A stretch of DNA of 64,000 bases from Tepidanaerobacter syntrophicus (GTDB lineage Bacteria; Bacillota; Thermosediminibacteria; Thermosediminibacterales; Tepidanaerobacteraceae). The number at the start of each line of letters is the position of its first letter. The first letter of the stretch is position 1. This document shows positions 26,497 through 41,221 of the stretch, piece after piece. A program made the translations under genes and the position numbers. The notes below the pieces were generated by a model. It was not told the origin of the DNA. It worked only from the letters and a program-made list of their open reading frames with translations, and ran no database searches. The DNA is taken from contig NZ_DF977001.1 of assembly GCF_001485475.2 (NCBI RefSeq), positions 186,001 through 250,000 of the forward strand, written 5' to 3'.

Positions 26497-28425
26497 TTAT
26501 AAATTCATAACATCTTTCAGGCTCGGAAACAGGCTGGTGTCCGTATGGGGAAGAAAACAAGCGCTGATAAACTCTTCCATATACAAGGGATCTGCGCTAA
26601 GCTCAATGTAGGTCATATTGTCCGCAATTTCTGCTGCCTTTTTTCTTGCTTCATCGCTGATTACACATGCATAAGCTCCTGCAAGGGAACTGTTGCCCAC
26701 AAAATCAAATTTGTCATGAGGTATATCAGGAAGTAAACCAATCACAATTGAGTTTTCAATATCAAGATTCTGTCCTATTCCTCCTGCTATTATAACTTTG
26801 TCAATATCTTCCGGAGTCATTCCCGCATTGTTTAAAAGAGTTCTTGCACCTGAATATACGGCACCCTTTGCGCGCAGGAAATTATCTATATCGATTTCAT
26901 TTATTGTTATATCTCGGCCGCTTTCTGTTTCATCTCCAAAGACTATCACGTATTCACTGCATCCAATATGTGCATTATATCTTATCCTGTCTGATTTGAT
27001 TGTTGTATTGAGTTTACCTTTCATATCTATTATACCTGTCAAAAACATTTCAGCAATAGCATCTATTATTCCGGAACCGCAAATACCTTTTGGCATAACG
27101 TTACCTATGACTTTTATTTCGGGTCTTAAGTCATATCTATTAATTTTTACCTCATCAATAGCGCCTATAGCAGCTCTCATGCCGCAGCTGATTTCTCCTC
27201 CTTCAAAGGCAGGCCCTGCAGAACACGCACATGTCAGCATCCATTCCTTGTTTCCTAAGACTATTTCACCATTTGTGCCTAAATCCATAAATAATATAGT
27301 TTCATCGCTATTCCAGATTCCCGATGCCAAAACTCCTGCTACTATGTCGCCTCCCACATAGCTTGCAACATTGGGCAGAGTAAATACAGGTGCATTTTTA
27401 TTGATATCAAGTAAAATATCCCCGGCTCTAAATATGGGAGCATGTCTAAATGCCGGTATATAAGGTTCGATTCTAATATTCTCGGCAGGTATCCCAAGCA
27501 GAAAATGAGTCATGGTCGTATTGCCTGCAAAAACCGAAAATATTATGTCATTTTTATCAATATTGAGCTTACTTGTCATATTATTAATCAGTTGATTCAA
27601 TGTACCTTCAGCTATAGCCTGCTGCAATTTTTTAAGCCCACTGTTTTTCGTAGAATAAATTATTCGACTTATGACATCTGCGCCGTACTGCATTTGCAAG
27701 TTGCCGCTATTTGCAGACGCCACTATTTCTCCTGTTTGAATATCGGCAAGGCAGGCAGCAACGGTTGTGGTGCCGATATCCGCACAAAGGCCTAAAGGTC
27801 CGGCTTTTTCTTTTTCGGCAATGCTTACAATATTACAATCATCACTATTTTTTGAAACAAACAGTCTGATTTCAAAATTATTTCTTCTTAAAGCCTGAGG
27901 CAGTTTTTTAAGGACTTCAACAAAGCATTTTACATTTTTACATCCCAGTACTTGCCTTAGCTCCCTTTCAACTCTTTCAAAATCGGGAATATTATCATCG
28001 ATCGTAGGTTTTGGAAGTTTAAGGCTTACTGCTTCAAACTTTGTTACAATTTTTACGCCCGAGGATGTTAGTGTTTCTACGGTCTTTTTTATAAATTTTC
28101 CCTTAGAGCCTGATGTTATATCTTCTACCATTATGTCGTTTATAACATCTATCTGGAGAATTTCAACGGTCATATCGTCTTGAACCCATGTCATACAGGC
28201 AAGTCTAATACCCTGTTCTATTTCTTCAGGCGAAAGAAGCGAGTTATATTCATGCTTGTGGGCACCGGATTTTACTTTGACTTTGCATTTACCGCATACC
28301 CCCTTGCCTCCGCAAGGAGCATCCAGGAATACTCCTGCCTTTCGCGCCGCTTCCATCAAATTAGTACCTCTGGTTACTTCTACAGTCTTTCCTGCCGGTT
28401 GAAAAGTAATAGTGCATTTTTCCAT
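26497..28425 (-). CDS. acsV: Reductive activator of corrinoid protein (RACo/AcsV)
   Basis: The 642 residues have an N-terminal [2Fe-2S] ferredoxin domain with ligands Cys38, Cys44, Cys47 and Cys77 (PCGGKGVCGKC, then LACMTW). A linker and middle domain follow, then a C-terminal ASKHA-type ATPase domain: LCADIGTTTVAACLAD, FAGNTTMTHFLLG, LFMDLGTNGEIVLG, AGPAFEGGEISCGMRA and IIAGGIGQNLDIEN. It uses ATP to re-reduce inactive Co(II) of the corrinoid iron-sulfur protein AcsCD to Co(I). It is encoded next to acsB in the CODH/ACS operon. The length is normal for the family. Confidence 0.92.
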   Translation of the reverse strand: MEKCTITFQPAGKTVEVTRGTNLMEAARKAGVFLDAPCGGKGVCGKCKVKVKSGAHKHEYNSLLSPEEIEQGIRLACMTWVQDDMTVEILQIDVINDIMVEDITSGSKGKFIKKTVETLTSSGVKIVTKFEAVSLKLPKPTIDDNIPDFERVERELRQVLGCKNVKCFVEVLKKLPQALRRNNFEIRLFVSKNSDDCNIVSIAEKEKAGPLGLCADIGTTTVAACLADIQTGEIVASANSGNLQMQYGADVISRIIYSTKNSGLKKLQQAIAEGTLNQLINNMTSKLNIDKNDIIFSVFAGNTTMTHFLLGIPAENIRIEPYIPAFRHAPIFRAGDILLDINKNAPVFTLPNVASYVGGDIVAGVLASGIWNSDETILFMDLGTNGEIVLGNKEWMLTCACSAGPAFEGGEISCGMRAAIGAIDEVKINRYDLRPEIKVIGNVMPKGICGSGIIDAIAEMFLTGIIDMKGKLNTTIKSDRIRYNAHIGCSEYVIVFGDETESGRDITINEIDIDNFLRAKGAVYSGARTLLNNAGMTPEDIDKVIIAGGIGQNLDIENSIVIGLLPDIPHDKFDFVGNSSLAGAYACVISDEARKKAAEIADNMTYIELSADPLYMEEFISACFLPHTDTSLFPSLKDVMNL

Positions 28426-28504: not shown

Positions 28505-30628
28505 TTAAAACATGGGATCCATGCTAAGAGCAGGATGGCCGACTTTTGTCAAAAATTCTACTACCGAATCCGGATCTGTTCCGACTTCTTCATCAGCAAT
28601 CATGTCATAGAAATTTTCTATGCCCATTTCTTTACCTCTTTCTATAAGTTTATCCTTGAGAGCTTCTTTTAATTCCTTAGGCATCCAAACAACGCGTTTT
28701 AATCCTCCGTCGGCATATAGGAACTTTTTACTCGTTATAAATTGTCTGCCGTGTCCCATAAACCCGGGTGTTTGAACACCGCCACCGGTGGTAGATGCCA
28801 ACTCGCCAAACGTCATGCCGAGCGGGGTCATGCCGTGGTATTCACGATTCACAATAATCACACCGTTTGCCTCAGGCATAATGCCGCAAATACATTCAAA
28901 ACATCCGCAGGATGTCATAGGATCTTCCATTATCGTGTATATATTAACTTTAGTTGTAGCGCCGTGGGATTGCTCAGCGACTCGCTTATTTATAGACTCC
29001 CAGCTGCCCTTGACCTCATCAAGGCACTCGCCTTTGACTATGGGCTGGCAAGGACCGGTGGGATTTAGCTCGTATGTTGCTTTTGCATCAAGCCAACTTA
29101 CGGCTCCACACAACCCAAGCCTTTCAGGTGTTACTATACACACATGGGCAGGTGCAAAAGATTGGCACAGCAAGCAAGAATAGAAAGTATCAACGCTTTC
29201 ATCGGTAAGGCCCGCAAGCCTTGCATCTCTTGCTTCATACTTTGGCCGAGCAACTTCATTTAAAAGTTTTTCTACTTGTTCTTTATCGGTAATTATAGTT
29301 ACTTGGACCTTATCGGCAATATTCCCAAATTCATCAAGCATCTTAGCGTATAGAACTTCGCCTATATGTTTCAGCCTGAAGCCTGCTTCATATGCGGATT
29401 TGCTTATTCGTACCCATGCAATGTCTCTCTGCCCTATATGCATAACGCCTTCAATATAATTTACAAAATAATGGATTCGGCGCTCCATTACAGGCTCAAA
29501 ATCTTCCTCCATATTCTTTCCTGCTACATCAACAATAATTGCCAAAGGAAGTTTTCCGCCGTCAGGGCCTAATGTATCAATATCCGGTCCTATTACTTCA
29601 ATCTTATGATCCTCAACTTCGGAAAGATCACGCTTTCTCACAAGTTCCCAGGCAGTCGTACGCCCACCGCCAAATTCCGCAAACATTTCGTCTTTGCGAA
29701 CTCTCTCCCCCTCAAAGGCTGGAGCAAAGCCTACAGGGATCGGAATTTCTGTTATTTTAATCTTTATACCACGAGCTTCTAGTGATGTTTGAACCAGTTT
29801 ATCATAGTCCTTTTGAACTATAAGATTCATTGGCACTTCCTGAACGTCCTGATCGGTAATTACGGGAAATCCTAATGCAATGGCTCCGGCACCGGCAGAC
29901 ACAACTAATTCGCTTAGAGGTCCTAGGGCATTTACAAAAGCCGGCACCCTTTCTTTAGTATATTTTAGCAGTTCCGGAAGGTCTCCGGGTTTTATATTTC
30001 CAAAGATTAGTGCTGCTCTTATAGCAAAAGACACTATATGTGTAACCGATGTCACATCATAGCCTAGCGGCACAACTCTAAATTCCAGGCCCATTTTTAC
30101 TTTTGATTCAATTGCCTGGTCAATTATTTTTCCTACTAATGTTACTAGGATACCTTTTGATTGATAGTCCTTAATGACTTTTGCCGCATCTTCCGCTGTC
30201 GGAGCCTCTCCGATAACAACAGCCACACCCGGAATATCTCCTGTAACCAGAGGCACACCAAGGGAGCGGATAACAGTATCTGGAATAAACCCAACACACG
30301 GTTCCTCGTAGGGATTCTTTCCGCCCACATATTTGCACGCTTCAATAACTTCTGCCGCAACCGCCGTTGCAAGTCCTGCATTTAAAGCCTTTTCGAGGTT
30401 CTGCTCTTTTACTATAAGGCTTTCAATGACTCCAATAGCACCTTTTAAATCCGCCAGAGTATTAATTTTTTGTCCGGTAGCAGCATAAATAGTAGGGAGA
30501 CTATAGGCAGTGTTGGGAAAACTTACTTTCTCGTTTTCTCCATACTCCTTTATGGTCTGCTCCAGCACAGATTTACAAGCCTCTAATGCTTGCTCGGAGC
30601 CGGTAAAAATAATGTCGAATAATGTCAT
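28505..30628 (-). CDS. acsB: Acetyl-CoA synthase subunit of CODH/ACS
   Basis: A 707-residue protein close in length to the Moorella ACS alpha subunit. The A-cluster ligands are in CLLCQSFAPAHVC and in MTSCGCFECICG, where the [4Fe-4S]-Ni-Ni site is built with the Cys-Gly-Cys binding the distal nickel. The N-terminal domain contacts CODH, the middle domain carries the CoA-binding arginines, and the C-terminus has GGGVQTPGFMGHG. It makes acetyl-CoA from CO, the methyl group of AcsCD and CoA. ATG with GGAGGG. Confidence 0.96.
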   Translation of the reverse strand: MTLFDIIFTGSEQALEACKSVLEQTIKEYGENEKVSFPNTAYSLPTIYAATGQKINTLADLKGAIGVIESLIVKEQNLEKALNAGLATAVAAEVIEACKYVGGKNPYEEPCVGFIPDTVIRSLGVPLVTGDIPGVAVVIGEAPTAEDAAKVIKDYQSKGILVTLVGKIIDQAIESKVKMGLEFRVVPLGYDVTSVTHIVSFAIRAALIFGNIKPGDLPELLKYTKERVPAFVNALGPLSELVVSAGAGAIALGFPVITDQDVQEVPMNLIVQKDYDKLVQTSLEARGIKIKITEIPIPVGFAPAFEGERVRKDEMFAEFGGGRTTAWELVRKRDLSEVEDHKIEVIGPDIDTLGPDGGKLPLAIIVDVAGKNMEEDFEPVMERRIHYFVNYIEGVMHIGQRDIAWVRISKSAYEAGFRLKHIGEVLYAKMLDEFGNIADKVQVTIITDKEQVEKLLNEVARPKYEARDARLAGLTDESVDTFYSCLLCQSFAPAHVCIVTPERLGLCGAVSWLDAKATYELNPTGPCQPIVKGECLDEVKGSWESINKRVAEQSHGATTKVNIYTIMEDPMTSCGCFECICGIMPEANGVIIVNREYHGMTPLGMTFGELASTTGGGVQTPGFMGHGRQFITSKKFLYADGGLKRVVWMPKELKEALKDKLIERGKEMGIENFYDMIADEEVGTDPDSVVEFLTKVGHPALSMDPMF

Positions 30629-30668
30629 ACATATCCCTCCAAGGATGTTTTTTCGCCTTCAGGCAAAA

Positions 30669-31454
30669 TTATAGGTCTAAGTAGGAATCGGCGTACAAGG
30701 TTCTTCCTTTTATCAAATCCGCCGTTTTAATCACATTTATAACCAGTTTATCCAATGGATTTATTATAGCAGAAGTCAGACCGCACTGAATAGCCATAGC
30801 GCAAAAGGTAGCTTCGATTAGGCCTCTAAGCTCCTTAGGGCAACCGTTGGATACATTGCTAAGTCCGCCGGTTGTTAAAAGCCCCATCTCCGAAATCTGT
30901 CTTACCGCTTCCAAGACTTCCTGTTGTTTGTCCTGCATGCCTTTTAGAACTACAAAGAGGGGGTCAAAAAGGATGTTTTCAGGATCCAAGCCGGTTTCCA
31001 TTGCCCTTTCCAGAATCTGCGTACAGTACATCATTCGCTCATCATTGTCTCTGGGAATACCTTCTTTTGCACACAATCCTATTACCATTGCATCATATTC
31101 TGCTGCAAGGTTTATCATATCAAGTCTTGGACCTGCATCAGCAGAATTGATAATGGGTTTGCCTGCCGTGCGGTCGTAAACTTTAATTCCGGCTTCTATT
31201 GCTTTCATATTAGCTGTGTCAAGACATAAAGGCGTATTAGGGAATTCTTCCTGCAAAATCTTAACCGCCCAGGGCATCAATTCTTCTCCGTCCCTGTCTG
31301 CAGGACCAATATTTACATCAAGATAATTAGCTCCTGCTTCAATCTGCTCCCGAGCTCTTGCAAGAATCGGCTCTGGATTTCTCTCCTGCAGTGCCTTTCT
31401 AATTGTAGGGGAAATAACATGTATTCTTTCACCGATAGTTAAAAATCTCGCCAC
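30669..31454 (-). CDS. acsE: Methyl-THF:corrinoid iron-sulfur protein methyltransferase
   Basis: A 261-residue pterin-binding TIM barrel. GERIHVISPTIRKAL is the start, GANYLDVNIGPADRDGEE contains the pterin-contacting Asp/Asn, and PLCLDTANMKAIEAG, PIINSAD and GGLSNVSNGCP follow. It moves the methyl group from methyl-tetrahydrofolate to Co(I) of AcsCD. It sits between acsC and acsB with short gaps. ATG with GGGAGG. Confidence 0.96.
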   Translation of the reverse strand: MARFLTIGERIHVISPTIRKALQERNPEPILARAREQIEAGANYLDVNIGPADRDGEELMPWAVKILQEEFPNTPLCLDTANMKAIEAGIKVYDRTAGKPIINSADAGPRLDMINLAAEYDAMVIGLCAKEGIPRDNDERMMYCTQILERAMETGLDPENILFDPLFVVLKGMQDKQQEVLEAVRQISEMGLLTTGGLSNVSNGCPKELRGLIEATFCAMAIQCGLTSAIINPLDKLVINVIKTADLIKGRTLYADSYLDL

Positions 31455-31472
31455 TTAATGTTCCTCCCTTTC

Positions 31473-32837
31473 TTAGCTTGCTTTATTTTGTTCCTTATAC
31501 TTCTTCAAGAAATTAGGCAATGCAGCTGCTTCCTCCGGCCCAACGATGACTTTCCAACCGGGTAGCTCGTCTTCAATATCAGCTTTAAGTACCGCAACTT
31601 TTCCGGGAATTATCATTTCTCTTGTTTTTACTTTATTTTCAACATCAAATTCCTTCAAAGCTTTTGCAATAGATTTAGCGTTAAACTTGCCTGCAGCCCA
31701 TGCCGTAAGTACTGAATAACCTCCTGCATCAGGTATTAAAATCCATGCAGGAACTTTAGATCGTTCAACTTCTCCGGATACGATAAAATATGTCAAGGCA
31801 AAATCGACGGTTACAAGCAGCGGGGATTCTTCATCGACAGGACCGATTTTATATACATCTTGTTCAATGCGCATGGGTCTTTGGGGATCTGTATAAATAT
31901 TTTGTCTTAAAGCAAACAGCGGAAGTGCCATGGCATAATCCATGTCGCTGAGTACAATTATTGAAGCGTATTTTTCAACGAACAACGATGCACATGCAAG
32001 CTGCATCATTTTATCCGTTGACATATCACATACAAAGGCTGCTGTAGGATATCCAAAGGTTCTGTCACCTGACAAAAGCGCCGTCCTGCGGATATTTACC
32101 ATATCGTCAAATGCTCCCTTTAAGTTCCGGCTTTTGGCATCCAGCAGCAGTTCTTTATATCCGGCATTTTGGATTTTTTGAACAAGTTCGTACAGATTTT
32201 CCTTACCATCTGCCGTAACTCCCAAAAGTAAATTGTTTTCTTTTGCAAGTTTTACCATATCTTCGTAATTGTCAGCAGTAGCCCCAAAAAGTATAGGTCC
32301 TTTTTCGGCAGAGATATCTAGTGCCGCTTTTGCAATCTCAGGATTTTCTGTAATTATCATGGGCACTATTTTTGGGCAACTTTCTGTGACATTTTTAATA
32401 AGGGATGTGAATTTATCCTTATCTTGGCTTTCGCATCTGAAGGCTCCGACTTCTATATACATTTCTTCATTAATTCGCGTATAATCAATTGCATTAATAT
32501 GATCTATCCGCGTCTTTATTTCATCTTCGGTCATAGTATCGGAAAATAATATCGCAAACCTAGGCCGGTTTACAAAGGTTTTTTCATGCCTAAAAAGGAC
32601 TGTTTCGCCACCTAGGGTATATTCAGTATCACCTCTGCCAAATTTTACTGTCTTCATAGGTGGTGCAGTAGCCTCGGCCAGTTGAGCCTTTGCCTCTTCT
32701 GACATATAGGGGCATTTTTCAGCTTCGGTTCCGCCCTGGGCAAGTTTCATGGCAAAAGCCAAACATGTAGGGAAACCGCATTCCTTGCAATTTTTGCGAG
32801 GAAGCAGTTTATATATTTGCATTCCATTAAGTGCCAT
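31473..32837 (-). CDS. acsC: Corrinoid iron-sulfur protein, large subunit
   Basis: The 454 residues start with the [4Fe-4S] domain (KNCKECGFPTCLAFAMKLA, then KCPYM), continue into a TIM-barrel domain, and end with the cobalamin-contacting C-terminal domain (YFIVSGEVERSKVPAWILIPDAGGYSV spans it). With AcsD it carries methyl-cobamide between AcsE and acetyl-CoA synthase. Order acsD-acsC-acsE-acsB as in several acetogens. ATG with AGGAG. Confidence 0.96.
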   Translation of the reverse strand: MALNGMQIYKLLPRKNCKECGFPTCLAFAMKLAQGGTEAEKCPYMSEEAKAQLAEATAPPMKTVKFGRGDTEYTLGGETVLFRHEKTFVNRPRFAILFSDTMTEDEIKTRIDHINAIDYTRINEEMYIEVGAFRCESQDKDKFTSLIKNVTESCPKIVPMIITENPEIAKAALDISAEKGPILFGATADNYEDMVKLAKENNLLLGVTADGKENLYELVQKIQNAGYKELLLDAKSRNLKGAFDDMVNIRRTALLSGDRTFGYPTAAFVCDMSTDKMMQLACASLFVEKYASIIVLSDMDYAMALPLFALRQNIYTDPQRPMRIEQDVYKIGPVDEESPLLVTVDFALTYFIVSGEVERSKVPAWILIPDAGGYSVLTAWAAGKFNAKSIAKALKEFDVENKVKTREMIIPGKVAVLKADIEDELPGWKVIVGPEEAAALPNFLKKYKEQNKAS

Positions 32838-32856
32838 AATTCATCTCTCCTTTTGT

Positions 32857-33795
32857 TTATTCAGTCATTTCTGTAATGAAGTTTCGGATAACTTCTACCG
32901 AACGCGGGTGTCTGAGTATTACTGCATTAGCTCCGGCAGCCAAAACTCCTACTGCACTGGATATTTCCATAGCTACTCCTCTTTCTTCCTGCGGTCCCCA
33001 TTCAGGTATATCTTCTTGAGTAACAACAGACTCTTTTACCTTCCATGCTTCGAAGGATACCGGTGAAATTATAGGCATTTGAAGTGTTTCATCATTTTGT
33101 TCCAAAGCAGCAAGCTTTATTCTGTCTAAAGTCGTAATCACATACTCAAAACCGTAGCCAACAGCTGCGCAGCCCGGGTTCATAAGCATTTTGTCGGGTT
33201 TTACCCCTAATTGTGTAATTAAAATATTAAGTTGTTTTGCAAGGTTCAAATCTACCGAAGACTCAGCCACTACAATATTGCCGTAAGCAAGTCCCACTGC
33301 AGCGGCAACTTCTTTGTAATTTGCTTCTATTGCCGACAAGAACGCATAGTTTTTATTTGTAAGGGCTTCAGCAATCTTAGTAAAGAGTTTGGCATTTTTA
33401 TCATTGTCTTGGCATCCTGCTATAACCAGTGGTACTGTTAAATTGTCAGCTAATTTTTTTGCAATTTCCGCACATTCTTCCACAGATCTGTTAAGGCCGT
33501 CAGGGCTTGCCCCTTCAAACTTAATACATATAAAATCCGGTTTATACTTTTCTACACAGTATGCTGCCCATTTTAACGGATCATCTGCGGCGTCTTTAAA
33601 GACATCAAGCACTGCGGCAGGCCAGGATTCAGGAAAGATATCCCATATTTCCATGCCTATAGCCGGCTTATTTCCGATGTTTCCATCAAAACCGTAAAAT
33701 GGCAGAACAGATTCTCCTCCGAGTTTCAGATCTGAGCCTACTGTTACTTCTAGAATTTTTCCGGAATATTTCTGAGTAGGCATTTTGTAAGCCAT
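32857..33795 (-). CDS. acsD: Corrinoid iron-sulfur protein, small subunit
   Basis: A 312-residue TIM-barrel protein. PTQKYSGKILEVTVG and LPFYGFDGNIGNKPAIGMEIWD are at the N-terminus, CIKFEGASPDGLNRSVEECA and IAGCQDNDKNAKLF in the middle, and MNPGCAAVGYGFEYV towards the end. This is the heterodimer partner of AcsC, capping the corrinoid. Its gene is 20 bases upstream of acsC. ATG with GGAGGCGA. Confidence 0.95.
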   Translation of the reverse strand: MAYKMPTQKYSGKILEVTVGSDLKLGGESVLPFYGFDGNIGNKPAIGMEIWDIFPESWPAAVLDVFKDAADDPLKWAAYCVEKYKPDFICIKFEGASPDGLNRSVEECAEIAKKLADNLTVPLVIAGCQDNDKNAKLFTKIAEALTNKNYAFLSAIEANYKEVAAAVGLAYGNIVVAESSVDLNLAKQLNILITQLGVKPDKMLMNPGCAAVGYGFEYVITTLDRIKLAALEQNDETLQMPIISPVSFEAWKVKESVVTQEDIPEWGPQEERGVAMEISSAVGVLAAGANAVILRHPRSVEVIRNFITEMTE

Positions 33796-33818: not shown

Positions 33819-34598
33819 TTATGCTTTCACTTTTGTAATTATTATATCATCAAAAATTTTTCTTGCGCTTTTTACGGCATCGCTGTCTTTGGGCAAGCGA
33901 ACCAGTGGGGTGCCTTTGTTATCATATTCAAATACTAACTTATCCTGCGGAATAGTTCCGGCAAGTTTTAAGCCATAGTTTTCTATTGTCTGCTTTATAT
34001 CGTCTGAGAGCCCTTCTTTAGGAACACGGTTGACTATGAGGTAAAGTTCCTTCACATCAAGCTGCAGTTCTTCTATGAGTTCTTTTACTCTTGAGGCGGC
34101 TTCTATTCCTCGTTTCGAACATTCGCTTACCGCAAACATAATGTCAACGCTTTTTGTAGTGCGCCTGCTTAAATGTTCTAACCCGGCTTCGTTGTCGATA
34201 ACCATTACTTTGTAATTATCGGAAAGTCTATCAGTTGCTTCCCTTAAAATACCGTTTGCAAAACAGTAGCAGCCGGCTCCTTCAGGCCTGCCCATAACCA
34301 GTAAATCAAAGCCATGACCTTCGATAATCGCCTGCTGAAGCTTATAATTAATATAATCGGTCTTGCTCATACCTCCCGGCAAATTTCCATCTCTGTTTTT
34401 AACACTTATGTCTTCTCTTATATCACCCAGGGTTATTTCTACATCTTCGCCCAGCACTTCATTTAAATTGGCATTGGGGTCGGCGTCTACACCCAGTATC
34501 GGCGTAATCTTTTTTTCTATTAAATAATCAATTAGGAAACCGGCCAGTGTTGTTTTGCCTGTGCCGCCTTTTCCTGCTACTGCTATAGTATAAGCCAT
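33819..34598 (-). CDS. cooC: CooC/AcsF-type nickel-insertion ATPase, downstream copy
   Basis: A 259-residue MinD-like ATPase. The deviant Walker A is GKGGTGKTTLAG at residues 8-19, GVDADPNANLNEVLG follows, and the metal-binding pair is in GAGCYCFANG (CxC). VIDNEAGLEHLSRR is the switch region. CooC dimers bind nickel through the CxC motif and help insert it into CODH; AcsF is the ACS counterpart. Its place next to acsD makes ACS maturation plausible for this copy. A second copy lies upstream. Confidence 0.9.
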   Translation of the reverse strand: MAYTIAVAGKGGTGKTTLAGFLIDYLIEKKITPILGVDADPNANLNEVLGEDVEITLGDIREDISVKNRDGNLPGGMSKTDYINYKLQQAIIEGHGFDLLVMGRPEGAGCYCFANGILREATDRLSDNYKVMVIDNEAGLEHLSRRTTKSVDIMFAVSECSKRGIEAASRVKELIEELQLDVKELYLIVNRVPKEGLSDDIKQTIENYGLKLAGTIPQDKLVFEYDNKGTPLVRLPKDSDAVKSARKIFDDIIITKVKA

Positions 34599-34633
34599 TT
34601 AATTCATCTCCTTGCACTTTCGCAATACAACAT

Positions 34634-34651
34634 ATAACGCTTTTGCGTTAT
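34634..34651 (-). other. Tetraloop hairpin between folD and cooC
   Basis: ATAACGC and GCGTTAT pair perfectly around four A residues (minus strand) in the 65-base gap after folD. No T-run follows, so it is a candidate processing or stability element. Confidence 0.4.
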
Positions 34652-34663
34652 TGCTGCAGCTTT

Positions 34664-35521
34664 TTAATATATGCCTTTCTGAAGCTTCAAAGCTTCGATT
34701 ACATGTTTTGCAAGCACTGTAGATGTCACAGCGCCTACTCCGCCGGGAACTGGGGTTATAGAGCTTGCAATCGGACACACGCTATCAAAATCCACATCAC
34801 CACACATCTTCCCGCTCTCGTCAAAATTAATTCCCACATCAATTACCACAGCACCATTGCTTACCATATCCTTTGTAACCATCTTAGCCTTTCCTGCTGC
34901 AGCAATAAGTATTTCACCTTTTTTTGTCTCTTCAGCCAGGTTTCTTGTCCTTGTATGGCAAATCGTTACAGTAGCATTGCGTGCAAGCAGCATCATAGCA
35001 AGGGGACGCCCCACTACCATGCTTCTTCCAATCACTACAGTTCGCTTTCCTTCTACCTTTATCCCGTAATAATCTAAGATTTCAATAACTGCAGCGGGTG
35101 TACATGGAGCAAACCCATCATCGTCTCCGCTTATTACTTTGCTGACGTTGATGGGATTGAGGCAATCCACATCCTTCTCTGGTGATATTTTATATTTGAT
35201 TGTATTTTCTGAGATGTATTGAGGAAGGGGCCTCATAACCATAATGCCGTTTATTTTGGGATCGGTATTTAAGTCGTCTATAATCTTTAAAAAATCTCCT
35301 TGAGTCACATCTTCCGGAAGTTTTTTTACTCGGCAATCTATTCCTATGCTGCTGCAGCGCTTTACAGCACTGTTGATATAAGATTGTGAATCAGGTCTGC
35401 TGCCTGCCATTACCAAGCAAAGTCCGGGGGTGATGCCTTGCTTTCTTAGCCGGTCGACCTCTGCGACAAGTTCATCCTTTAGGGCTGCGGCTACTTCCTT
35501 GCCATCAAGTATCTTTGCCAT
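34664..35521 (-). CDS. folD: Methylene-THF dehydrogenase/methenyl-THF cyclohydrolase
   Basis: About 285 residues of bifunctional FolD. The catalytic lysine region is SYINSAVKRCSSIGID (Y-x3-K), followed by GIMVMRPLPQYI, the family PGGVGAVTS motif at the end, and VVIGRSMVVGRPLAMML in the NAD(P) domain. DVDCLNPINVSKV follows QLPLP-like residues. It covers two folate steps of the methyl branch, so no separate fchA is needed. I use the ATG at 35521, behind GGAGG, rather than the TTG two codons earlier. It overlaps the DUF166 gene by 17 bases. Confidence 0.95.
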   Translation of the reverse strand: MAKILDGKEVAAALKDELVAEVDRLRKQGITPGLCLVMAGSRPDSQSYINSAVKRCSSIGIDCRVKKLPEDVTQGDFLKIIDDLNTDPKINGIMVMRPLPQYISENTIKYKISPEKDVDCLNPINVSKVISGDDDGFAPCTPAAVIEILDYYGIKVEGKRTVVIGRSMVVGRPLAMMLLARNATVTICHTRTRNLAEETKKGEILIAAAGKAKMVTKDMVSNGAVVIDVGINFDESGKMCGDVDFDSVCPIASSITPVPGGVGAVTSTVLAKHVIEALKLQKGIY

Positions 35522-36341
35522 CAGCAATCCTCCTTATATTCTTTTGAGCATCTTTTGCCGCATTCAAATTAATATAAGCTGCGATATGCATAGGGGAGTC
35601 GCAAATCTCAGGGTCCATATGACTGCTAGAAAGGCACGGATAAGCATGCCACAGTCTATTTGCAATACTTACAACATCTTCCTTGTCAACACCTATAAGT
35701 CCGGCAGCCACATGGTAGGTGGCACCGCAGGCAGACGAGTAAGAAACGTCTACCGCGGCTACTTTTTCATTGTCATCAACAAAAACAGTATACTTAGGTC
35801 TTCCTATTTTAAACTGATCTATAAAAGAATTGATATATCTAAACTTTCCCTTTGCAAGAGAACAAAACGGCCGAGGAAAGGCATATTCCAGATTCATTTG
35901 TTCGCATAAAGCTTTAAGCTTATTTGCAAAAGAAGACGAAAGCCAAGTAGGATCTTCTCTGGGAACTATTATCGCTTTGCATCCTGCCTTTGCAGCATGT
36001 TTTACCAGCTCCACAAGTATGTCGGGATGCACTCCTACTGCAATTAAAATATCATGTTCGGCAATAGGGCTCTTTATATAAAGCTCGGCATCATCTATAA
36101 GTTCAGGCAGAACGGAGGGAAATCTTATGACACCTGCTATGTCTTTACTAAAATTAAGATTCAGCTTCTGCCTGAACTTAAAACATCTTCTTGAACAATA
36201 ATCAGGATTATCTTCAAAATTTGTCAAATGCGGTAAAAATTTCCTTGCTGCAAATTCTCCTCCATATTTTACTTGAAAAAATCCGGGCAAATCTGGTGTA
36301 TCATGGCTTGCAGCTATTAGGAGTTTTAACCGTTTATCCAT
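35505..36341 (-). CDS. DUF166-like protein in the Wood-Ljungdahl operon
   Basis: A 278-residue protein that I assign to DUF166. It contains CSRRCFKFRQKL, HDILIAVGVHPDILVELVKHAAKAGCKAIIVPREDPTWL, and AFPRPFCSLAKG, and the C-terminal part has SSACGATYHVAAGLIG. (The long HDIL...TWL block spans about residues 97-131 and is quoted here only by its key pieces: HPDI, GCKA, VPREDP.) Several conserved Cys and His suggest metal or cluster binding. DUF166 proteins are known mainly from archaea and anaerobes with no assigned function. It lies between fhs and folD, and overlaps folD. ATG with AAGGTGG. Confidence 0.7.
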   Translation of the reverse strand: MDKRLKLLIAASHDTPDLPGFFQVKYGGEFAARKFLPHLTNFEDNPDYCSRRCFKFRQKLNLNFSKDIAGVIRFPSVLPELIDDAELYIKSPIAEHDILIAVGVHPDILVELVKHAAKAGCKAIIVPREDPTWLSSSFANKLKALCEQMNLEYAFPRPFCSLAKGKFRYINSFIDQFKIGRPKYTVFVDDNEKVAAVDVSYSSACGATYHVAAGLIGVDKEDVVSIANRLWHAYPCLSSSHMDPEICDSPMHIAAYINLNAAKDAQKNIRRIADGKDT

Positions 36342-36368: not shown

Positions 36369-38048
36369 CTAAAATAATCCTGTAATTCTTCCGCTGGCAT
36401 CTACATCAATATTTTCTGCTGCGGGCCGCTTCGGCAGTCCGGGCATTGTCATTATGTCACCGGTAAGCGCTACAACAAATCCTGCCCCTGCTGAAATTTT
36501 TACATTTCTTACATTTATCTTAAAACCGGTTGGACGGCCAAGTATTTTAGGATTATCGGTAAGAGAATACTGAGTCTTAGCAATACAAACCGGAACATTT
36601 CTAAATCCGAGTTTCTCTAAATTATCGATTTCTTTTAATGCGGCCGGGGCAAATTCCACACCATCTGCGCCGTATATCTCTTTGGCTATGGTAGTTATTT
36701 TATCTGCAATGCCTATATCTAAATCATAGATTGGTTTAAATTCGTTTTTGCCCTCATCTATAATCCTTACGACTTCTTTTGCAAGCTCTATGCCGCCTTC
36801 TCCACCTTTTGCCCAGACTTCTGAAAGCACCGCATTTACACCAAGATTATTACACTCTTCTTGAACTAATTTGAGTTCATTTTCAGTATCTGTAGGGAAT
36901 TTATTAATAGCTACGACTGCAGGAATTTTATACTTTTTAGTGATATTTTCTACATGTTTTAATAGGTTTGGCAATCCCTTTTTCAATGCATCCAAGTTTT
37001 CCTTGCTAAGATCTTCTTTACTTACTCCACCATTATATTTTAAAGCACGGACAGTTGCAACAATTACTACAGCATCCGGCTTTATGCCTGCCGTGCGGCA
37101 TTTTATATCTAAGAACTTTTCCGCTCCAAGATCTGCGCCAAAACCTGCCTCTGTTACTACATAATCTGCAAGTTTTAATGCCATTTTTGTTGCAATAATG
37201 CTGTTGCAGCCATGGGCAATGTTTGCAAAGGGTCCTCCGTGTACAAATGCAGGTGTTCCTTCAAGGGTTTGAACCAAGTTCGGTTTAAAAGCGTCTTTTA
37301 AAAGTGCGGTCATCGCTCCATGTGCCTTTAAATCCTTAGCCGTAACCGGTTTTCCATCATAGGTATAGCCAATTATTATTCGCCCAAGACGATTTTTTAA
37401 ATCTTCCATGTCAGTTGCGAGGCAAAATACTGCCATAATCTCAGATGCAACCGTAATGTCGTATCCGTCTTCCCTAGGCATGCCATTTGTTTTTCCGCCA
37501 AGACCGTCAACTACAAATCTGAGCTGCCGGTCGTTCATGTCTACACATCTCTTCCAAGTTATACGGCGAGGATCGATATTGAGCTCGTTTCCTTGATAAA
37601 TGTGATTGTCTATCATGGCGGCTAAAAGGTTATTAGCTGCGCCGATAGCATGAAAATCTCCGGTAAAATGAAGGTTTATGTCTTCCATAGGCACTACCTG
37701 GGCATATCCTCCGCCTGCAGCACCTCCCTTTATTCCAAACACCGGTCCTAGGGAAGGTTCCCTAAGGGCTATCATGGCATTTTTGCCGAGTCTTCTTAAG
37801 GCATCGCCCAATCCTACTGTCGTTGTGGTCTTGCCTTCTCCCGCAGGCGTTGGGTTTATTGCAGTGGTAAGTATCAGCTTGCCGTCTTTCTTGTTTTCAA
37901 GGCCTTTTAACAAGTTGTAGTTGATTTTAGCTTTATACTTACCATAGTATTCTATCTCATCCTCAGAAAGGCCGACTTTCGCCGCAATATCCTTAATATG
38001 TTCAAGTTTAGCTTCCTGGGCAATTTCAATATCGCTTTTATAGCTCAC
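36369..38048 (-). CDS. fhs: Formate-tetrahydrofolate ligase
   Basis: A 559-residue protein of normal family length. The P-loop-like [18 protein letters not shown] is at about residue 68, [20 protein letters not shown] follows, and [18 protein letters not shown] and [13 protein letters not shown] are in the middle. It activates formate with ATP to 10-formyl-THF, or runs in reverse in acetate oxidisers. The start is GTG overlapping the upstream cooC stop by four bases. Confidence 0.97.
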
Positions 38049-38857
38049 TTTACTTCCTCCCTTGGATTTGAGTTTTTTATAAGTGTTAAGATATTATCTT
38101 TAATTAACCTGACTTCATTTGTATAGTTTATGCAAGACTTAAAAGGCGCTTGTCCCAACCTATCAGCTTTTATAAGCTCATCATCGTAAGGTAAAAATCC
38201 TAAAACCTGAGTATCTTCGCAGGCTTTTTTAATAAATTCTTTTTCCTCATCGCTACTAATTTTATTGCCTACAACGAATACATTCTTTACCCCTATATCT
38301 CCTGCCAGCTTTTTGATGGTAGACAATGTTTGAATACTTCTCTTGCCCGGCTCGGTCACAACGATAAAGGCATCTACGCAATCTGCGGTAGCTCTTCCAA
38401 GATGTTCTATGCCGGCTTCCATATCCATTATTAACGCATCTTGAGGGGCTATAAGAAGATGCTGCATTAAAGCCCTTAAAAAAGCATGCTCCGGGCATAT
38501 GCACCCTGAACCGCCGGCTTTTACAGTGCCCATAACCAGAAGCTTTATACCTTCATGCTCAACACAATATTTTTCAGGTATATCGTCCACTTTTGGATTA
38601 AGTTTGAACATCTGCCCTATCCTGCCCGGCACAGCTTGGGTCCGCTGAGCTATTAAATCTTTTATTTCAGAAAGGGGCGTTATGTTCATAATTTTTTCTT
38701 CCGGAAATCCTAAAGCCATTGCAAGATTTGCATCAGGGTCTGCATCAACAGCTAGGACTTTGCATCCTTCTTCTGCCATTACTTTTGCAAGAACTCCTGC
38801 AAACGTGGTTTTACCTACGCCGCCTTTACCTGTAATTGCTATCTTCACCGCCAGCAC
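38045..38857 (-). CDS. cooC: CooC-type CODH maturation ATPase, upstream copy
   Basis: A 270-residue MinD-like ATPase with deviant Walker [29 protein letters not shown], the nickel-binding CxC in [11 protein letters not shown], and [20 protein letters not shown]. It lies directly after the CODH gene, which fits the CODH-specific CooC. The frame begins with GTG at 38857; a second GTG three codons later (38848) is also possible behind AAAGGATG. It overlaps fhs. Confidence 0.92.
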
Positions 38858-40801: not shown

Positions 40802-41221
40802 TTATACTATCTTTATTTTTAAAGCCCTTGTAGGACATGACATAGCGCAGAAAGGCTTGTCGGAATGTGCGCATCTGTCGCACATAGTTGGGAATGTATG
40901 AAGTTCAATAGCGCCGAAAGGACAGGCCTCCTCGCAAAGACCGCAGCCTGTGCATAGCATCTTGTCAACCTTTATGATTCCAAGTTCCTCATCTTTAGAA
41001 AGCGCTCCGGTTGGACATACGGCAATGCACCGAGGATTTGCGCAAAGCATACACTGTTCGAGTTTTAGCTTTCCTCCCTTTGTTTTTATTCTAAGCCGGG
41101 AAATTTTATTTTCCTTTATCGCGCCAGATAGGCTTCTAGAGTCAGAATGAGCCGCTGCGCAGGCAAGTTCACAGGTCTTGCATCCAAGGCAAAGGTCTTT
41201 TTCAAAAAGAATCTTTACCAT
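40802..41221 (-). CDS. Four-cluster [4Fe-4S] ferredoxin (CooF/HycB-like)
   Basis: A 139-residue protein with four cysteine motifs: CLGCKTCELAC, CMLCANPRCIAVCP, CTGCGLCEEACP and CDRCAHSDKPFCAMSCP. This is the pattern of CooF/HycB electron-transfer subunits. It is the first gene of the CODH/ACS operon, 19 bases before acsA, so it is the likely electron carrier of CODH. ATG behind GAGGGG. Confidence 0.9.
   Translation of the reverse strand: MVKILFEKDLCLGCKTCELACAAAHSDSRSLSGAIKENKISRLRIKTKGGKLKLEQCMLCANPRCIAVCPTGALSKDEELGIIKVDKMLCTGCGLCEEACPFGAIELHTFPTMCDRCAHSDKPFCAMSCPTRALKIKIV

Follow-up and report, generated by a model that had tools for sequence, protein, structure and literature searches.

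The window analysed here, a stretch of 64,000 nucleotides from the genome of Tepidanaerobacter syntrophicus (C7:186001-250000), carries an operon of CODH/ACS genes with the following features, given in the direction of transcription.

40802..41221, minus strand: 4Fe-4S protein, cooF-like (cooF in the available part of PMC3584212)
38881..40782, minus strand: cooS/acsA, CO dehydrogenase (CODH), named by reading
38045..38857, minus strand: first cooC-type ATPase, named by reading, start codon provisional
36369..38048, minus strand: fhs, formate-THF ligase
35505-36341, minus strand: DUF166 gene, 278 aa with an ATG start, from the open reading frame and Pfam
34664..35521, minus strand: folD, its ATG inside the DUF166 frame
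34599..34663, minus strand: spacer between folD and cooC, the place where relatives carry metV, metF and lpdA
33819..34598, minus strand: second cooC/acsF-type ATPase, named by reading
28505..33795, minus strand: acsD, acsC, acsE and acsB (ACS beta at 28505-30628), ACS by profile
26497..28425, minus strand: RACo-type activator of corrinoid protein, named by reading

The protein encoded at 35505-36341 has DUF166 (PF02593) as its sole Pfam match, with 163.9 bits against a gathering cut-off of 24.4 and an E of 5.4e-48. The end of fhs at 36369 lies 27 nt upstream of the gene, and the folD ATG (35521-35519) is found within the DUF166 frame ahead of the DUF166 stop codon (35507-35505), giving an overlap of 17 nt; both genes have clear ribosome-binding sites (AAGGTGG, AGGAGG). 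This agrees with an earlier note on this DNA, which had described a DUF166-like protein between fhs and folD and overlapping the latter, and which had refrained from proposing it as a reductase; a Pfam profile search indeed found no MTHFR (PF02219) match in the protein at E 1. The same kind of search found no ThyA or ThyX match at E 1, no folate-enzyme match and no DNA-binding domain. Selenocysteine is absent from the window protein, the frame being open and carrying Cys, with no internal stop or in-frame TGA. The window genome holds a single copy of DUF166, and no relative was found among viral contigs. The gene is under purifying selection (dN/dS 0.05 against the orthologue of genome G016, with dS saturated). 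Since several related genera also carry it in this operon, its presence there is beyond chance.

The gene is already in print as an unknown 'hyp': the available part of PMC3584212 (2012) describes the orthologue as 'hyp' or ORF3 of the fhs1 operon in T. acetatoxydans and Thermosediminibacter oceani, remarks on archaeal homologues and suggests perhaps a regulatory role. In that text the 'hyp' account does not include the cross-phylum link to CODH/ACS, the fusions or the fold described below. No assignment of a function to DUF166 was found in the literature searched, where DUF166 as a whole word led only to selenoprotein lists (PMC9312934 and PMC13188914, in their available parts), DfsP as a word solely to unrelated uses among the matches listed, and 'IscU-like' joined with CODH and ACS to nothing. 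A term search of the main text of two papers on the genomic context of CODH, as far as that text was available (PMC13056359, PMC6344411), did not find DUF166; the family may be listed in the supplements of PMC6344411, since the CODH fusions and enriched COGs of that paper are given there. For the CODH/ACS-wide linkage in bacteria, the CODH fusions and the IscU-like prediction, no precedent was found in the literature searched.

Gene loss from the operon

In four loci of relatives (L057, L058, L060, L061) the gene order is FeS protein-cooS-cooC-fhs-DUF166-fchA-folD-metV-metF-lpdA-cooC-acsD-acsC-acsE-acsB-gcvH-RACo, and L059, L064 and L065 have the same order over the part fetched; that of T. 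acetatoxydans (G015) agrees with the order published for this species (PMC3584212, available part). Compared with these relatives the window operon is without fchA, metV, metF, lpdA and gcvH, the last of which stands ahead of the RACo gene in the relatives, and DUF166 has been retained while these genes left. The 'hyp' operon of T. acetatoxydans, in contrast, keeps all of them. For the cooC gene after the 34599..34663 spacer of the window, the ribosome-binding site is identical to that of G016.

No MTHFR (PF02219) match lies inside the window, as the earlier note had observed, and the two matches of the window genome are found outside it at C7:342859-343689 and C9:9359-10213. The note had framed the locus by a missing methylene-THF reductase; since metV-metF is present within the operons of sister genomes, and in this genome on C9, that framing was rejected, and the reductase is absent through local gene loss. 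The C9 cluster (L073) comprises RACo-like, acsE-like, fhs, fchA, folD, metV, metF and gcvH genes and is without DUF166; a similar cluster in T. acetatoxydans (L046), which the available part of PMC4374699 reports as a duplicate set, has lpdA in addition and is again without DUF166. With second copies elsewhere, the loss from the operon took duplicated genes, lpdA excepted, and the single-copy DUF166 remained. The window thus offers a natural experiment in which the operon lost folate genes and kept DUF166.

The short metF is seemingly absent in some genomes of genus g8; this is probably an assembly artefact, because the contigs of G017, G018, G020 and G021 break inside folD and inside lpdA, which flank metV-metF. 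Neither folate cluster in the window genome has lpdA, and both of those in T. acetatoxydans do; in that species the main-operon folD (L057 9121-9974, G015) is frameshifted into two pieces and an intact folD stands in L046. The PF02219 match at C7:342859-343689 (L074) is a canonical E. coli-type metF with a score far above that of the metV-linked copy; within the class, a score like it was found only in G011.

Distribution and fusions of DUF166

Within the class (26 genomes) DUF166 is present in 16 and ACS in 18, all 16 of the DUF166 genomes having ACS; ACS without DUF166 is found in G005 and G006. MTHFR occurs in 25 of the 26, with DUF166 present or absent, and the two distributions are unrelated. 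Among 398 Bacillota genomes DUF166 is found in 18, ACS in 113 and both in 17, and the sole DUF166 genome without ACS (G099) is 84% complete. ACS is present in 38 of 251 Chloroflexota genomes and DUF166 in seven, each of these seven also having ACS, where the DUF166 count was made at E<=0.001, six of the seven are over the cut-off and two were known beforehand. A DUF166 scan of named genomes gave 75 loci, and 34 of the 37 genomes from these loci that were tested have ACS. All of these samples are phylogenetically clustered, and hypergeometric values for the co-occurrence therefore overstate the evidence. The phylogenetic profile against Wood-Ljungdahl genes that the earlier note had proposed accordingly upholds a co-occurrence of DUF166 with CODH/ACS. 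The note had set against its own reading a normal metVF elsewhere in the genome combined with no such co-occurrence: the metVF is there, and the lack of co-occurrence is contradicted by the counts.

In the archaea we take COG1810 to be DUF166, and M. stadtmanae is not known to have CODH/ACS. The available part of a 2007 archaeal survey (PMC1852104) gives COG1810 and the CODH epsilon subunit (locus tags MMP0976, MMP0984) as present in methanogens and A. fulgidus, both being absent in M. stadtmanae. The linkage of DUF166 to CODH/ACS is well supported, and the family is both present with ACS and encoded in the ACS operon, as a CODH/ACS-linked accessory should be. DUF166 is absent in 96 of the 113 Bacillota ACS genomes and is therefore not required for CODH/ACS in general. 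ACS beta itself was found in open frames of 1182-1466 aa in several Chloroflexota genomes (G416, G418, G427, G432-G434, G628), ~450 aa or more over the usual length, and these may be ACS fusions.

In two genomes of different families (G058 and G229) DUF166 forms the N-terminal part of a protein of 913 or 908 residues, the rest of which is CO dehydrogenase (PF03063); each fusion gene is part of a cdh-type CODH/ACS cluster. The fusion partner of DUF166 in G315 is a thioredoxin-like [2Fe-2S] (NuoE) domain; this gene belongs to a CODH/ACS operon and has nuoF, ACS, a cooC-type gene and a molybdopterin oxidoreductase beside it. DUF166 stands directly behind a cooC-type gene at L089, L104, L118 and L164. 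Gene calling picked out DUF166 in 67 of the 75 scan loci; the flanks had pathway-gene matches at seven of these 67, six being CODH/ACS clusters (L104, L118 and L164 among them) and the other (L107) having a prismane-family protein only. Most Chloroflexota copies are not adjacent to CODH/ACS genes, some of them having a gene for a Crp-type regulator, for a cupin or for a hemerythrin-DUF438-PAS protein nearby.

Some neighbourhoods have features of their own. The G315 locus (L089 3496-18277) brings cdh-type CODH/ACS, cooC, DUF166-NuoE, NuoF and the molybdopterin oxidoreductase together in one cluster, which suggests a CODH-formate-NADH electron link. G007 has a second window-type DUF166 gene (L062 8793-9599), 39% identical, with four Cys in the insert and remote from pathway genes. 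A DUF166 protein of Methanomassiliicoccales (L123 6348-7439) is 363 aa long and has ~130 extra N-terminal residues, in which no Pfam match was found. At L102 2020-2355 a 111-residue protein with no Pfam match at E 0.001 lies between DUF166 and cooS.

Conserved residues and predicted structure

C160, C205 and C236 are invariant in all 79 DUF166 sequences aligned, and D248 and H252 in the 78 that have a letter there; the window protein has every one of these five putative ligands. In a tree of the 79 proteins a window-type clade of 19 is set against a shorter type of 60, and both CODH fusions fall in the window-type clade with a support of 100/99, a join that is less certain because of the long branches of the fusions. 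The N-terminal insert of the window type has one Cys in 19 of 19 and four Cys in the CODH fusions, and no ferredoxin-type CxxC pair is conserved family-wide in the 79-sequence alignment.

AlphaFold2 with 53 relatives gave a model of the window protein with a pLDDT of 81.8 and a pTM of 0.78, comprising a Rossmann-like N-terminal part, a low-confidence insert (residues 15-45, below 50) and a predicted IscU-like C-terminal domain at ~180-270. The best structural matches of the whole model are Rossmann-like (Z ~8), for the N-terminal part a common arrangement from which no function is drawn. The C-terminus of the whole model matched human ISCU2 with a Z of 7.2 over 81 residues (rmsd 2.4). With the C-terminal domain the eight best VIA hits were ISCU/IscU, at Z 7.1-6.5, followed by an unrelated xanthine dehydrogenase at 6.4, and it should be said that a VIA Z under 8, as in all of these C-terminal matches, may reflect merely a common arrangement. 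Modelled alone this domain had a pLDDT of 82.8, and the nine best Foldseek hits for it were all ISCU/IscU (E 0.77-1.6). The C-terminal half thus appears to resemble the Fe-S scaffold IscU, at scores that fall short of decisive.

Homology to IscU by profile was rejected, the scores being no better than those of controls. The DUF166 protein has no NifU_N (PF01592) profile match, and none of four hhalign comparisons of DUF166 with NifU_N stood above the controls: NifU_N scored 12.5 in the smaller set, against 12.1 for the best of 39 control alignments, and 15.7 in the larger set, against 21.8 for the best of 70, the DUF166 family itself having sat among the control clusters in both sets and being excluded from these figures. 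The larger-set alignment, which is not significant, keeps one register over 77 columns, pairing C205 with the second Cys of IscU and H252 with its His. PDB sequence searches with the protein returned nothing relevant, and a Pfam scan of 54 DUF166 C-terminal domains found no second family of note.

The IscU site is made up of three Cys, one Asp and one His, in a ligand motif of the order CxD...C...HC. DUF166 is like IscU/NifU_N in this set of residues and may be like it in the predicted C-terminal fold, and differs from it in the order of the residues (C160, C205, C236, D248, H252), in the extra Rossmann-like half and in the profile result. DfsP, a DUF166-family selenoprotein (NF041372), belongs to the same superfamily, the window protein matching its model with 52.5 bits over positions 31-201 of 203, far under the cut-off of 200.

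A candidate role in metallocluster assembly or repair

Work on acetogenesis and methanogenesis still asks how the C-cluster of CODH and the A-cluster of ACS are assembled and why recombinant enzyme is often under-metallated. DUF166 is a concrete candidate here, one that can be deleted or co-expressed: it follows ACS across phyla, occurs as a fusion with CODH and carries an invariant three-Cys/Asp/His set on a predicted IscU-like fold. Because an IscU-like metal or cluster site serving the enzyme would unite the distribution, the fusions, the conserved residues and the predicted fold, we tentatively favour, as a plausible reading, a metallocluster accessory dedicated to CODH/ACS, acting in assembly or repair, and not a folate enzyme. 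The C-terminal domain would use the five putative ligands to coordinate a metal ion or an Fe-S cluster in formation, the Rossmann-like part may dock on CODH/ACS or on its CooC/AcsF ATPases, or sense a nucleotide or CoA, and what is bound would go on to the C-cluster of CODH or the A-cluster of ACS, or serve in their repair. The retention of DUF166 in the shortened operon, its place behind cooC-type genes and the archaeal distribution it shares with the CODH epsilon subunit also speak for this reading; the many Bacillota ACS genomes that have no DUF166, the weak IscU scores, the different residue order and the Chloroflexota copies away from CODH/ACS genes speak against it. That DUF166 is a dedicated IscU-type scaffold common to bacteria and archaea, which builds or repairs a Ni-Fe-S cluster of CODH/ACS and has been fused to the CODH chain in some lineages, we regard as unlikely. 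In being encoded with CODH/ACS, DUF166 is like the maturation proteins CooC, AcsF, CooT and CooJ, from which it differs in having no Pfam similarity to them and in being neither a P-loop ATPase nor His-rich. Like DUF166, CooT and CooJ are not known from every CODH/ACS organism.

The main rival to a metallocluster accessory is a CODH/ACS subunit for redox chemistry or electron transfer, whose conserved Cys would carry either a stable cluster or a thiol that is redox-active and relay electrons between CODH and other carriers. That DUF166 is joined in frame to CODH and, in another genome, to a [2Fe-2S] NuoE-like domain argues for such a subunit, as do the existence of selenoprotein relatives (NF041372 DfsP; PMC9312934 and PMC13188914, available parts) and the Cys motifs of the window-type insert, with their four Cys in the fused proteins; a CODH fusion suits a stoichiometric subunit equally well as a maturation factor. 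Against it, no CxxC pair of ferredoxin type is conserved family-wide, and an invariant Asp and His next to Cys would not be typical of an electron relay; we hold the redox subunit to be possible, if somewhat unlikely. Throughout the class DUF166 has fhs on one side and fchA/folD on the other, and genes overlap; this would instead suggest a folate or methyl-branch enzyme or a helper of Fhs, FchA and FolD. This is disfavoured by the folate-only clusters L073 and L046, which do without DUF166, and by the fusion partner being CODH in two genomes; moreover, the distribution tracks ACS, no folate-enzyme profile matches the protein, and DUF166 is found in methanogens, which use another pterin. We consider a folate role improbable, and of the roles that the earlier note had suggested it is metal supply or cluster handling that finds support, and folate chemistry that does not.

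A role in regulating the operon or in sensing CO, the suggestion made for 'hyp' in the available text of PMC3584212, would be in line with some Chloroflexota copies being near a Crp-type or PAS-hemerythrin gene. It is more doubtful still, as no DNA-binding domain was found by Pfam profile search and the CODH fusions would tether a regulator to the enzyme. The DUF166 family was once labelled thymidylate synthase, and for this reason that identity was considered as well. The window genome (G000, 99.95% complete) is without ThyX and ThyA by profile, which would leave room for such an enzyme; yet each of the other 15 class genomes with DUF166 has ThyX, as do the DUF166-free ones (25 of the 25 other class genomes), the protein matches neither profile, and its distribution tracks ACS. 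We give this identity hardly any credence, and it was rejected on the ThyX of the other DUF166 genomes and the profile result.

The absence of ThyX and ThyA matches in G000 may reflect an assembly gap, salvage or another enzyme, and a ThyA profile match was found in none of the 26 class genomes. In 21 genomes of the order (G005-G025) the ThyX matches fall into two parts of one frame of ~390-430 aa, as if ~150-200 residues had been inserted, possibly an intein or a tandem copy.
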